From Bacteroidia bacterium (lineage in GTDB: Bacteria > Bacteroidota > Bacteroidia > J057): DNA of 64,000 bases. The translations under genes were made by a program, and so were the position numbers. The stretch is taken from the NCBI GenBank assembly GCA_033391075.1, contig JAWPMV010000001.1, forward strand, positions 4,340,001 to 4,404,000, read 5' to 3'. Positions 16,564 through 59,296 of the stretch are shown one piece after another (position 1 is the stretch's first letter; the number at the start of each line of letters is the position of its first letter). Below the pieces are notes generated by a model. That model searched no databases, had not been told where the DNA came from, and worked only from the letters and a program-made list of their open reading frames with translations.

Positions 16564-16640
16564 GTGTTTATGTGTTGTGGTGTTAGAGTGTTGTCGTTTC
16601 GCTGCTGCTTAGAACTACCGCACTTCAACACTAAAACACA
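16564..16640. repeat. GTGTT/AACAC octamer inverted repeat, copy A (murC-ftsQ)
   Basis: The left arm has four GTGTTNNN units in exact 8-bp register at 16564, 16572, 16580 and 16588. The right arm has AACAC-type units at 16619 (degenerate), 16627 and 16635. The arms pair imperfectly over about 23 bp around a loop of about 23 nt. The element fills the whole murC-ftsQ gap and ends 2 nt from the murC stop codon. Confidence 0.8.
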
Positions 16641-19064: not shown

Positions 19065-19140
19065 GTGTTCTTGTGTTCTCGTATTCTTTTGTTCTCGATT
19101 TAGATTCTGGCGCTCCTGAACACATGAACACCAGAACACT
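19065..19140. repeat. GTGTT/AACAC octamer inverted repeat, copy B (ftsW-murG)
   Basis: Left-arm units in 8-bp register start at 19065, 19073, 19081 and 19089 (GTGTTC-type subfamily). Right-arm units containing AACAC start at 19117, 19125 and 19133. The loop is about 20 nt. The right arm ends 10 nt past the ftsW stop codon and the left arm begins 8 nt before the murG start codon, so the element occupies the whole gap inside the operon. Confidence 0.8.
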
Positions 19141-32405: not shown

Positions 32406-32566
32406 AGGTTAATTGAAGCAAATCTTGAGCATAAACTGTTGAATAGGGGTAATCAGGATGTAGCAAATGAGCTTTTGCTATAGAGACTAAACTAAAAAGT
32501 TTTCCGGAATGTTGGGATGCTCGTACTAAGGTTTTCAGAATTGGTAAAGGGGGGAGATGTTTTCAC

Positions 32567-32640
32567 GTATTCTGGAGTTCTTGTGTTCTGGTTTAGGGAT
32601 AACTCTCTAGAACATGAGAACACATGAACACCGGAGCACC
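32567..32640. repeat. GTGTT/AACAC octamer inverted repeat, copy C (after feoB)
   Basis: Left-arm units in 8-bp register start at 32567, 32575 and 32583 (GTGTTC-type, one GTATTC). Right-arm units containing AACAC or a one-base variant start at 32609, 32617, 32625 and 32633. The loop is about 18 nt. The element ends 4 nt past the feoB stop codon. The remaining 160 nt to the GH9 gene start show nothing else. Confidence 0.8.
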
Positions 32641-41200: not shown

Positions 41201-41326
41201 GTGTTTGGGTGTTAGGGTTTTAGGGTGTTAGAGGAGAACGTATTGCTATGTTGGTGTATTGGCGATTCTTCGAATTTCACCAATTGGGAAACACCAACAC
41301 GCCTATACACTAACACACTAACACCC
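41201..41326. repeat. GTGTT/AACAC octamer inverted repeat, copy D (upstream of yqgE)
   Basis: Left-arm units in 8-bp register start at 41201, 41209, 41217 and 41225 (GTGTTAGG-type), with a second set at 41240, 41248 and 41256. Right-arm units in the same 8-bp register start at 41288, 41296, 41304, 41312 and 41320. The pairing is imperfect. Unlike most copies it is about 190 nt past the nearest stop codon, with a terminator in between. Confidence 0.75.
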
Positions 41327-41354
41327 CTTTCTTTATTTGTGGACTACAAATAAA

Positions 41355-41382
41355 GAAAGGGGACTGATCCAAAGTCCCCTTG
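41355..41382 (-). terminator. Rho-independent terminator of the DUF2807 gene
   Basis: On the minus strand GGGGACT (41373-41379 complement), loop of 7 nt, AGTCCCC, then TTTCTTTATTT. A perfect 7-bp GC-rich stem with a T-rich tail, about 130 nt past the stop codon at 41512. Confidence 0.7.
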
Positions 41383-42385: not shown

Positions 42386-42616
42386 GTGTTCTGGTGTTGG
42401 GGAAGAGTGTTAGAGTGTTAGAGTGTTAGAGTGTTAGAGTGTTAGAGTGTTAGAGTGTTAGAGTGTTAGAGTGTTAGAGTGTTGTAGTTTATTATTTCGA
42501 GAACACCAGAAGACTTCCATTCTTCATTTCCTCAAAAACGTGTTGGTGTGTTGGGGTTGAAGGTTTTCTTTAATGCAAGAACACTAACACGCTAACACGC
42601 TAACACCCAAAAACAC
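42386..42616. repeat. GTGTT/AACAC octamer repeat cluster, copy E
   Basis: A compound copy. The left part has GTGTTNNN units at 42386 and 42394, then nine identical GTGTTAGA units from 42407 to 42478 and one variant to 42486. An AACAC stretch at 42502 pairs with the first two units. A second element has left units at 42540 and 42548 and right AACAC units at 42580, 42586, 42594, 42602 and 42612. It lies between divergent genes rather than after a stop codon. Confidence 0.8.
42407..42478. repeat. Tandem array: nine perfect copies of an 8-bp unit
   Basis: GTGTTAGA is repeated nine times without a mismatch, followed by one diverged unit (GTGTTGTA, 42479-42486). The unit equals the arm unit of the dispersed inverted repeats, so the array most likely grew from one by slipped-strand copying. 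Such arrays are prone to length change. Confidence 0.95.
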
Positions 42617-42634
42617 CAATAGGTTCTTCCCTCT

Positions 42635-43283: not shown

Positions 43284-43366
43284 GTGTTAGTGTGTTTGAG
43301 TATTAGTGTGTTAGTATAATATAATTCCAACTCTCATACCCTAACACCCATAAACCCTAACACACC
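43284..43366. repeat. GTGTT/AACAC octamer inverted repeat, copy F (after sigma factor)
   Basis: Left-arm units in exact 8-bp register start at 43284, 43292, 43300 and 43308. Right-arm units start at 43343, 43351 and 43359. The loop is about 27 nt. It begins 3 nt after the stop codon of a plus-strand gene, so the link to stop codons holds for both orientations. Confidence 0.8.
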
Positions 43367-46075: not shown

Positions 46076-46627
46076 TCAATCCTCTGCATCCCGCAAAAAT
46101 TCTTCTATGGGTTTATCCTGAATATATAGTTGTTCAATCACTGCCATGCCTTCTTTGATGCGTACATCCACAAATACCTCCTCTTTCCCCCACTCAGAAA
46201 ACTTCCGAACAGCCTCTTCAGCTTTGGGAGCCATTTCCTCATTCATATAATACTCATCAAAGGGATAGGAAAATCCCACTTCCTTATCGGTAATGTAGTT
46301 TATTTCAACCCGTAGATAGTTCCCATTTTCAGGAGCCCGCGGAAAAATCTCCTGAGGTACAGACAAGCCCGTTGAATCTTTGCCGAGGCTTATAAAAGCA
46401 GAGGTTCCGTACTCAAAGACTTCAAGTCCATTTTCATAAGGCAATTGGGGATTCTCATATTGGAGAAATACATAACGCCCTTTAAATGGATTGTAGGGAT
46501 CTATGGGCCGGGGTTGAAAGCGATGGAGCTCTCCTTCGCTCAGGACTGATTCGTAGCCAGAGATCATTTGCAAGGGAAAGCCTGCATAGAGGATCATGGT
46601 CAGAATGAATGCGATATTTCTATACAT
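46076..46627 (-). CDS. GDYXXLXY-motif membrane-associated protein
   Basis: A 183-aa protein with a hydrophobic N-terminus (residues 3-20, signal or anchor) and the motif F-K-G-R-Y-V-F-L-Q-Y (about 48-57), the GDYXXLXY-type signature. The rest is a small beta-rich extracytoplasmic domain. The gene follows a DUF2157 membrane protein gene, the usual partner of this family; the two probably form a complex. Function is unknown in all cases I know. Repeat copy G fills the gap between the two genes. Confidence 0.85.
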   Translation of the reverse strand: MYRNIAFILTMILYAGFPLQMISGYESVLSEGELHRFQPRPIDPYNPFKGRYVFLQYENPQLPYENGLEVFEYGTSAFISLGKDSTGLSVPQEIFPRAPENGNYLRVEINYITDKEVGFSYPFDEYYMNEEMAPKAEEAVRKFSEWGKEEVFVDVRIKEGMAVIEQLYIQDKPIEEFLRDAED

Positions 46628-46644: not shown

Positions 46645-46724
46645 GTGTTCTCGTATTCTGGTGTTCATGTGTTCTGGAAAATCAATTCAAACTAGAACAC
46701 TTGAACACCAGAACCCCTGAACAC
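46645..46724. repeat. GTGTT/AACAC octamer inverted repeat, copy G (best-preserved)
   Basis: The cleanest copy. Left units in 8-bp register start at 46645, 46653, 46661 and 46669. Right AACAC units (one with a CCC variant) start at 46696, 46704, 46712 and 46720. The arms pair over about 32 bp with only about seven mismatches, around a loop of about 18 nt. The last unit ends at the DUF2157 stop codon. Confidence 0.85.
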
Positions 46725-48038
46725 TTATTTCTTTTTCTTCATCAAATAAATATTCACGCCAAAGAAGGCAGAGCCAATGAGCAGAAAGGCGATACCTTTC
46801 ACCAGGAAGCTAAAGTCGGGATCGAAAAACCTCATGACAAAGAGGGAGGACATGATAAACATCCCTGCATTGACCAATCCCAATCTTTCTTTAATGATCC
46901 CTTCTCTTAAATAATAGGCACCAAAGGCCAGAAGGAATACATTAAAAAGAACCATAAAGATTTTGGGGGGAAGGGTATCCGTACTTCCTAAGAGCAGGTA
47001 AGAGATCACCAATACCGGAAAACCCACAATGAAGTAATTCAACCAGTTATTCTTTCTGAGGTGATAAACGAGTAGGCCTCCCATTCCTGCCAGGGCACTC
47101 ATGAATACACCTATATTCGTCCATGAAGCCCAGGAAGCGTATTTCTTACCTCCCAGTATTTCCGCCCATTCCAGATCAAAATCAATGGATTCAAATGAGA
47201 AGAACATGGCCATCACATAAGTCCCGATAATTGCAATAGACTGAAAAGGTCTTTGCCAGGGGTATTCTTCTTTGCCATAGAATTTTCTTCCGATAAGATA
47301 TAGCAGGCCAAATACCATGGCATAAGCAATGATGCCCCCACTTTCTACCCGCCATTCTGGTACTCGCATTATAGAGAATAAAAGAGAAATCCCAAGTGCC
47401 CATCCCAATTGATTGGCACGTATTCTACGATCCGGATGTGAAATATTCATCCAAAGGTGAGGAATTGCAGCTCCCAATAAGAGCCAGTACCTTACAATAT
47501 GGCTGCTACTTTCCGGTACATGAAAGGTCCAGGAACTGATTCCTGCCAGGAACATCATCGTAACCAAAGTAGAATTTCTCAAATACATAAGTGGGATACT
47601 CAATAGCATCCATATCCAGAGAAATTCTTCCATACTGCCGGCTATATTATAGGTTTGGCTGATGAGGGCTATGGAAGAAGCCAGCATCAACATCAAAAAG
47701 CCAGAGGTACTTTCTATCCAGGCCACAGAATCCTTCTTCTTGAAATAGGCATAGGCATAAAAGCCCTGGGCGATCAATAAAGGTGCGACACTCAGGAAAG
47801 CCCGAAGCCCCCTTCCAAAGTTGTCCCAATTATAGGCGAAAATTGAGATGATCCCTGCTCCGATTAGCAAGGCTCCCAGTATTCCCGTAATAATGAAAAT
47901 TGGATTGTTTCCCTTTTGCATAGCCAGAGGCTGATAATGTGCCTCCAGCTTTTGGGCCGACTCCTGATTCAGGACTTTTTCATGTAAAAGTCCCGGCAAT
48001 TCAGCAAGCAGCCATCGTGCATGTTTCGAATTTGACAT
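46725..48038 (-). CDS. DUF2157 polytopic membrane protein
   Basis: A 437-aa protein. The N-terminal cytoplasmic part (about 1-45) has the family start (LLAELPGLLHEKVLNQESAQKL), followed by about twelve hydrophobic segments from residue 46 on (IFIITGILGALLIGAGIISI first). It ends in a short basic tail (YLMKKKK). DUF2157 proteins have no assigned activity. Co-occurrence with a GDYXXLXY protein, as here, is common and suggests one system. Start and length are normal. Confidence 0.88.
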   Translation of the reverse strand: MSNSKHARWLLAELPGLLHEKVLNQESAQKLEAHYQPLAMQKGNNPIFIITGILGALLIGAGIISIFAYNWDNFGRGLRAFLSVAPLLIAQGFYAYAYFKKKDSVAWIESTSGFLMLMLASSIALISQTYNIAGSMEEFLWIWMLLSIPLMYLRNSTLVTMMFLAGISSWTFHVPESSSHIVRYWLLLGAAIPHLWMNISHPDRRIRANQLGWALGISLLFSIMRVPEWRVESGGIIAYAMVFGLLYLIGRKFYGKEEYPWQRPFQSIAIIGTYVMAMFFSFESIDFDLEWAEILGGKKYASWASWTNIGVFMSALAGMGGLLVYHLRKNNWLNYFIVGFPVLVISYLLLGSTDTLPPKIFMVLFNVFLLAFGAYYLREGIIKERLGLVNAGMFIMSSLFVMRFFDPDFSFLVKGIAFLLIGSAFFGVNIYLMKKKK

Positions 48039-59200: not shown

Positions 59201-59296
59201 GGTGTTGGCATGTTAGAGTTTTAGTGTGTTGGTGTTATTATTATCTAGCAAAATGCATACGCTAATACCCCAACTCGTTAACACTCCAACACCTTT
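59201..59296. repeat. GTGTT/AACAC octamer inverted repeat, copy H (after lptE)
   Basis: Left units in exact 8-bp register start at 59201, 59209, 59217, 59225 and 59233. Right units (AATAC, AACTC, AACAC, AACAC) start at 59263, 59271, 59279 and 59287. It lies inside the miaB-secG operon and ends 4-8 nt past the lptE stop codon. Outermost pairing AAAGGTGTTGG with its complement is perfect. Confidence 0.8.

Follow-up and report, generated by a model that had tools for sequence, protein, structure and literature searches.

Tandem-octamer hairpins placed just behind stop codons, a putative REP-like 3'-end family in a Bacteroidia genome and in species of several phyla

The window (the whole 64-kb stretch of DNA analysed here) occupies 4340001 to 4404000 of an 8.16-Mb contig, and its gene content, for example a Por secretion tail, points to a Bacteroidota. 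It contains eight copies of an octamer-array hairpin, to none of which a strand is assigned. In copy G (46645 to 46724), the hairpin begins 0 nt after the stop codon of a gene for a DUF2157 membrane protein (46725 to 48038, minus strand) and ends 17 nt before the start of a gene for a GDYXXLXY protein (46076 to 46627, minus strand); it folds at -40.9 kcal/mol (z -7.7). Five further copies have similar positions: copy A between murC and ftsQ (16564 to 16639; 2 nt after the murC stop; fold z -2.6), copy B between ftsW and murG (19065 to 19139; 10 nt after the ftsW stop; z -5.2), copy C (32559 to 32639; 4 nt after the feoB stop; z -2.6), copy F (43284 to 43363; 3 nt after the stop of a plus-strand ECF-type sigma gene; z -3.7), and copy H (59202 to 59292, or 59216 to 59292 by its outermost GTGTT/AACAC; 7 nt after the lptE stop; z -3.4). 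These distances, measured from the stop codon to the outermost GTGTT or AACAC, agree with those of the original prediction, which had six of eight copies abutting a stop. The two exceptions are copy D (41201 to 41324; z -5.7), a longer hairpin 187 nt from the upstream stop, and copy E (42399 to 42622; z -4.4, measured on 42536 to 42625), which comprises two overlapping octamer hairpins in the divergent gap that precedes the sigma gene. Directly adjoining copy D is an octamer-free inverted repeat, CCCCTTTCTTTATTTG/CAAATAAAGAAAGGGG (41324 to 41362). Pfam matches back the gene names (Mur ligase domains, FTSW_RODA_SPOVE, FeoB, Sigma70_r2/r4, DUF2157, and LptE), and Rfam models gave zero matches at gathering score across the window. 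All eight copies fold below the mean of their dinucleotide shuffles (z -2.6 to -7.7), with 3 of 200 shuffles folding equally well for each of copies A and C.

Each element is an imperfect hairpin with a left arm of tandem GTGTTNNN octamers, a loop, and a right arm of NNNAACAC octamers. The unit consists of the core GTGTT and a spacer NNN, and the spacers come in three "dialects," one common to most arm pairs. The order GTGTT-then-AACAC was found in 65 pairings and the reverse in 1, which places the GTGTT arm on the left, and element length ranges from 49 to 197 nt (mostly 60 to 105 nt). Being palindromic, the element reads alike on both strands and has no orientation of its own; the earlier description of copies lying "in either orientation" can apply to the gene but not to the element. 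Copy E contains a perfect AGAGTGTT tandem, which suggests that arms may grow by slippage in 8-nt steps. Among all 5-mer cores scanned at periods of 6 to 12, palindromic matches numbered 36 at period 8 and 0 to 3 at every other period, and 34 of the 36 represent one array in shifted frames (GTGTT, 20; TGTTC, 12; GTTCT, 2); both the octamer core and its period are specific. A first sample of the source genome (1.664 Mb, comprising 16 blocks of 100 kb and the window) yielded 77 elements at a detector score of at least 22, whereas a Markov simulation gave 1 and the reversed sequence 4. In a second 0.8-Mb sample, separate from the first, 16 were found, so that element density is unequal between the two. 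Across the source genome the pattern GTGTTNNNGTGTTNNNGTGTT occurs 128 + 115 times and its backward control 2 + 2 times.

We compared element positions with genes called by a purpose-made in-frame hexamer caller. In the first sample 74 of the 77 elements are intergenic; one at a block edge and two inside called genes, both with the lowest score, were dropped. A stop codon lies no more than 5 nt from 40 of these 74 and no more than 20 nt from 58, far above the expectation from uniform placement in gaps (2.5 ± 1.6, with a maximum of 11 in 2,000 trials, and 7.9 ± 2.7, respectively), and a null model that keeps each element in its own gap still predicts 21.9 ± 2.6 within 5 nt. The mode of the stop distance is 4 nt. 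Start codons are mildly enriched (20 elements within 20 nt; null, 10.7 ± 2.9), as short gaps would yield. For 43 of the 48 elements in co-directional gaps, the upstream stop is nearer than the downstream start; where at least 100 nt of spare room is available, 13 of 20 lie within 20 nt of the stop (uniform expectation, 2.1) and 1 of 20 equally close to the start. The preference is therefore for the stop codon and not for gap compactness alone. Divergent gaps are under-used (6 of 74 elements versus 25.4 ± 4.0 expected). The second sample gave the same picture, with 8 of 16 elements within 5 nt of a stop (null, 0.5), 11 of 16 within 20 nt (null, 1.6), and 2 of 16 in divergent gaps (expected, 5.0 ± 1.8), which brings the divergent total for both samples to eight. 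Contig stretches of other species, selected by a strict hairpin pattern, contributed 64 placeable elements out of 89 (16 fell inside an ORF call and 9 at an edge). Across these genomes from several phyla, a stop is at most 5 nt away for 29 of the 64 (null, 2.0) and at most 20 nt away for 49 (null, 6.5 ± 2.4), and 4 are in divergent gaps (expected, 17.3 ± 3.5). Because stop-side placement recurs in both samples and in other genomes, the six distances in the window are an instance of a rule valid in several phyla.

The inference drawn earlier from this tight placement, that insertion is not random, stands insofar as position is tied to the stop codon; function does not follow from it, since REPs and stable stem-loops sit likewise. 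Stable stem-loops in general concentrate behind stops, according to the available part of one study (PMC1590033), and hairpins arising everywhere through slippage and template switching might simply survive where they do least harm, with no function at all. The patchiness of the elements (79 occurrences of the hairpin pattern in the source genome and 0 in 12 genomes of the same family) and the differing densities of the two samples suit such passive tolerance, as does the arm-swap result described below. It is harder to reconcile with the spacious co-directional gaps, in which 13 of 20 elements hug the stop even though mid-gap positions should be equally harmless, and with octamer hairpins that persist at one orthologous gap across two genera of Balneolaceae. 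On balance we consider this account unlikely, though it deserves to be taken seriously.

Terminator-like action, one of the roles originally proposed, did not survive in its usual sense. Runs of T after the right arm (at least six T in an 8-nt window) were found in 6.9% of 72 flanks and 8.4% of 630 controls, indicating no excess, and because they have no U-tract the elements are not ordinary intrinsic terminators. In addition, the next start codon is no more than 20 nt away for 16 of the 48 co-directional elements, including copies A, B, and G, which leaves little room for a new promoter; the canonical terminator was rejected on these two grounds. With the element length subtracted, co-directional gaps in the first sample resemble element-free ones (32% of each are shorter than 30 nt; KS p 0.24), and operon-like junctions, as judged from gap lengths, thus appear not to be spared in this sample.

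The elements could instead be unusual bidirectional terminators, long hairpins without a U-tract that replace canonical ones. In convergent gaps of the first sample, a simple purpose-made scan called canonical terminators in 2 of the 20 that hold an element and in 60 of the 169 that do not (p 0.023). Differences in gap length may account for part of this exclusion, and none was seen in long co-directional gaps (5 of 25 with an element versus 95 of 472 without). Occupancy in the first sample was 5.2% of co-directional and 10.6% of convergent gaps, an equal rate per stop, whereas the second sample favored convergent gaps (8 of 102 versus 6 of 420 co-directional). We dropped the equal per-stop rate as a general statement, as it holds in the first sample only; the convergent preference of the second fits a terminator role better than an equal rate does. 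At the 3' end of a transaldolase-family gene in Balneolaceae, 5 of 15 genomes have an octamer hairpin and the other ten score a U-tract terminator (weak in one, G120), but the neighboring gene also differs between the two groups, which weakens the case for a simple terminator swap. Given also that a third of co-directional elements, including those in the division and cell wall gene cluster, lie so close to the next start, we regard bidirectional termination as a general explanation as distinctly improbable; in convergent gaps the elements may still act as weak or slow terminators.

The original prediction pointed to orthologous gaps in related genomes as a check on random insertion, and three junctions bear it out. 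The murC-ftsQ junction measures 2 to 55 nt in 8 of 10 same-family relatives, overlaps in 1, and is 113 nt long and octamer-free in 1; the ftsW-murG junction measures 0 to 36 nt in 4 of 5 relatives and overlaps in 1; and the DUF2157 and GDYXXLXY genes overlap in all three relatives that have the pair (the first possible ORF start was taken throughout). An octamer hairpin was seen at these junctions in none of the 10, 5, and 3 relatives compared. The corresponding junctions in the source genome span 87, 92, and 97 nt, nearly all of it element. The element was therefore gained in the source lineage at all three sites, right behind the stop.

New insertions of about 75 to 80 nt directly behind stops, even where the genes of relatives overlap, are what a non-autonomous, REP-like mobile element would produce if it were moved by a transposase that targets gene 3' ends. 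This proposal concerns origin and is compatible with function. The many copies, their patchy occurrence in unrelated phyla, and the like placement of REPs, as set out in the available part of one REP study (PMC3733652), agree with it. A common loop or fixed length was not seen among the elements listed, though, and spacer dialects vary per genome. The whole source genome holds one match to PF01797, a single Y1 transposase domain that is not flanked by elements: the sole octamer hairpin in its 3.3-kb locus lies 0.9 kb downstream, beyond another ORF. A RAYT partner was accordingly rejected. The strict hairpin pattern was also found in 1 stretch only of a viral collection of 2.9 million contigs, on which ground phage-borne spread was rejected as well. 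Overall we judge mobilization to be a fairly improbable source of the family. Expansion through loss of the hairpin nuclease SbcCD was likewise discarded, as SbcD is present in 10 of 13 genomes, including the source genome.

The 12 other same-family genomes lack the pattern GTGTTNNNGTGTTNNNGTGTT, as they do the hairpin pattern. Among 395 genomes drawn from the phylum, 16 carry the hairpin pattern, the source genome included, and 14 of the 15 other carriers belong to one family. That family is probably Balneolaceae, judging from a 57-nt identity between an element of one carrier (G182) and a Balneolaceae contig (L156). A scan of one genome per species found at least 81 stretches with the hairpin pattern in several phyla; carriers among the matches listed include Saprospiraceae, Chitinophagales, Chitinophaga, Cyclobacteriaceae, Flammeovirgaceae, Splendidivirga, Balneolaceae, Calditrichaceae, Neomarinimicrobiota, Deltaproteobacteria, Chloroflexi, UASB270, and others. 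The octamer rule recurs across genomes and the spacer dialects differ from one genome to the next. Five carrier contigs (L130, L102, L114, L159, and L169) contain long hairpins of the same design with units of 7 nt (ATGATGA, GACGGTA), 9 nt (CACAGAG.., CGCAGAG..), or 10 nt (GGTTGAGAGG), so that octamer hairpins may belong to a broader class of hairpins built from repeats. Octamer-like hairpins with another core (ATTGTTNN/ATTGCTNN) occur at L149:7523-7617 and L115:4538-4625, in contigs that also hold GTGTT elements.

The Balneolaceae hairpins are older than the gains in the source lineage. At one convergent gap, with both neighbors orthologous in 11 of 15 Balneolaceae genomes, a GTGTT octamer hairpin is present in 6 of the 11 (four of one genus and two of another); the remaining genomes have another long hairpin (3), other sequence (1), or a gap of under 30 nt (1), where hairpin types were judged from the letters and G083 and G351 were counted as other hairpins despite a loose octamer flag. 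Spacers and loop have been wholly replaced at this orthologous gap, and the octamer hairpin is still found in both genera. Unrelated long palindromes occupy the sites of L252 and L238 (both G083), L242 (G144), and L247 (G351), where sister species have GTGTT hairpins, as if the hairpin had been kept while its letters were replaced. At two loci the loop has been inverted between species. Between G095 and G155, 16 of 16 loop positions are identical when inverted, compared with 4 of 16 when read directly, and at a second Balneolaceae locus a 68-nt stretch matches the opposite strand at 97 to 100% between flanks of unchanged orientation. Both loops were flipped in place, as replication template switching would do. 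As far as the available portions of two papers go, template switching homogenizes the arms of inverted repeats and inverts their spacer (PMC8604942) and also makes and mends RNA hairpins (PMC8794818).

Arm pairing in the source genome appears at the level of the family more than of the single element. The two arms share a spacer dialect in 51 of the 68 elements classed on both arms (of 74). When arms of the same dialect are swapped between elements, neither spacer identity (own, 0.589; swapped, 0.593 ± 0.016) nor duplex energy (own, -25.1 kcal/mol; swapped, -25.2 ± 0.5 kcal/mol) changes, so individually maintained stems were rejected for this genome: own arms are no more complementary than swapped ones, and pairing is guaranteed by the unit rule and not tuned element by element. 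Six other genomes (5 to 19 elements each) were divided, with the own-arm duplex stronger than the swapped in three (JAFLBP, JABWBP, and CALIZI) and not in three; in CAUJEY swapped arms pair better than own. In close Balneolaceae orthologs, broken pairs and double compensatory changes number 8 versus 2 and 12 versus 4, respectively, as counted in two alignments of four sequences with the first sequence as reference.

Weak own-arm tuning and broken pairs are compatible with a protein that binds by recognizing the core. The inverted arrays could, on this argument, be paired sites for a nucleoid or other DNA-binding protein, with the stop-side position merely avoiding promoters and genes; the core GTGTT is conserved while spacers do not pair individually, and paired arrays in Geobacter metallireducens were read by their authors as putative IHF/HU binding sites (PMC2700814, in the part of the text available). 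Promoter avoidance does not, however, account for a mode 4 nt from the stop, and a dialect common to both arms in 51 of 68 elements is explained by pairing and need not arise in independent sites. Nor does the 8-bp step match the helical repeat of DNA. We hold paired DNA-binding sites to be a very unlikely basis for the family.

The reading that we prefer, to which we give about an even chance, is that the elements form a REP-like family of 3'-end hairpins acting on the mRNA of the gene just ended. They are intergenic stem-loops with tandem-octamer arms, gained just behind stops. In the mRNA, the stable hairpin flanking the 3' end would most likely block 3'-to-5' exonucleases (a PNPase domain is present in the source genome), and it may also slow trailing ribosomes or RNA polymerase. 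Control of re-initiation at the next gene, another of the roles originally proposed, would be a further possibility. The message of the upstream gene would in this way be marked off and stabilized, in operons and convergent gaps alike. Slippage in 8-nt steps would lengthen the arms, and template switching during replication would keep them complementary and flip loops in place. The mechanism, both the action on mRNA and the mutational source, is proposed from sequence comparison; the readings considered here overlap, and the chances that we assign to them do not sum to one.

A further lead links the hairpins to a protein family. Genes of PF05635, the 23S rRNA intervening-sequence protein, lie upstream of octamer hairpins in four Balneolaceae contigs (L266:975-1406, L198:1062-1439, L186:721-1116, and L225:1987-2355), identified by Pfam in the first three and by a purpose-made profile in L225. 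An octamer array is also present on the far side of the gene in two Balneolaceae contexts, L266/L187 and L198, although that of L187/L266 is short and imperfect. The purpose-made profile found no PF05635 in 2.46 Mb of the source genome (the 1.66- and 0.8-Mb samples) or in 80 other contig stretches. In 23S rRNA intervening sequences, as the available part of one paper describes them, the PF05635 gene is located in a stem's loop (PMC4990558). By analogy, a single element family might have two forms: a coding one, with a PF05635 four-helix-bundle gene flanked by octamer arms, and one without a gene, represented by the octamer hairpins. The protein would then bind, keep, or spread gene-end hairpins. 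This is a long shot, but if true it would give PF05635 a function and would link rRNA intervening sequences with intergenic palindromes.

If the elements do act as REP-like 3'-end hairpins, a REP-like solution has been reached in at least two ways that are unrelated in sequence, and position itself would be what selection wants. The visible 8-nt steps and flipped loops would then document, in nature, how slippage and template switching create and maintain long hairpins, and the Balneolaceae provide orthologous gaps with and without octamer hairpins. Extrapolating from 77 elements in 1.66 Mb and 16 in 0.8 Mb, the 9.49-Mb genome should hold a few hundred natural sites at which protection of mRNA 3' ends and effects at the end of translation could be measured.

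Literature searches on repeats with 7- or 8-nt units, REPs at stops, Saprospiraceae repeats, template switching, and IVS proteins, which covered mostly titles and abstract openings outside subscription papers and supplements, returned no recognized description of a GTGTT octamer hairpin. Intrinsic terminators are likewise RNA hairpins behind genes and can be bidirectional in convergent gaps; the octamer hairpin differs in having no U-tract, a much longer imperfect stem, and apparently frequent occurrence in operon-like junctions. REPs resemble the octamer hairpins in being multicopy intergenic palindromes that prefer gene 3' ends, and they are thought to act as RNA, the same action that we propose here. 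A paper of 2015 reportedly assigned REPs near stop codons a role in ribosome stalling. The unit of a REP is 20 to 40 bp long and has no internal tandem repeat, in contrast to the 49- to 197-nt elements with tandem-octamer arms. GTAG REPs go with RAYT (Y1) transposases flanked by the repeats, an arrangement that the octamer hairpins do not share, and their 72 stop-side flanks show no fixed tetranucleotide comparable to the GTAG/CGTC tag at the foot of the REP stem, with positions -4 to -1 before the arm led by A (0.47), G (0.49), A (0.79), and A (0.39). Placement is closely similar: in the available part of the REP study, REPs occupy mostly co-directional and convergent gaps, those in convergent gaps lying mostly less than 20 bp from 3' ends and co-directional ones lying near the upstream gene at a variable distance from the next (PMC3733652).

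Three other repeat systems share parts of this construction. The TAACTGA heptamers of Beggiatoaceae, Cyanobacteria, and some Bacteroidetes occur in many intergenic regions and have been given a proposed post-transcriptional role; unlike the octamer hairpins they are, in the part of the account available, direct repeats without predicted structure that lie mostly upstream of starts in the main genome described (PMC4679880). The arrays of G. metallireducens, also as partly available, are degenerate tandem octanucleotides (class 1, GTTGCTYN; also TWGTTGAY) facing each other on opposite strands in many copies, with variable spacing in class 1. They are thus paired arrays like ours, with the consensus GTTGCTYN in place of the core GTGTTNNN, and the available text does not describe placement at stops (PMC2700814). 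Stem P6b of the Nostoc trnL intron is built of degenerate tandem heptamers (TDNGATT or NNTGAGT); its units are gained and lost, and its arms are complementary (PMC4476775, in part). It too is a stem of degenerate fixed-length tandem repeats, although confined to one locus in a group I intron and built on a 7-nt unit. Within the portions of these papers at hand, the G. metallireducens arrays and the heptamer-built stem of Nostoc are the closest printed constructions that we found to a gene-end hairpin with arms of tandem octamers.
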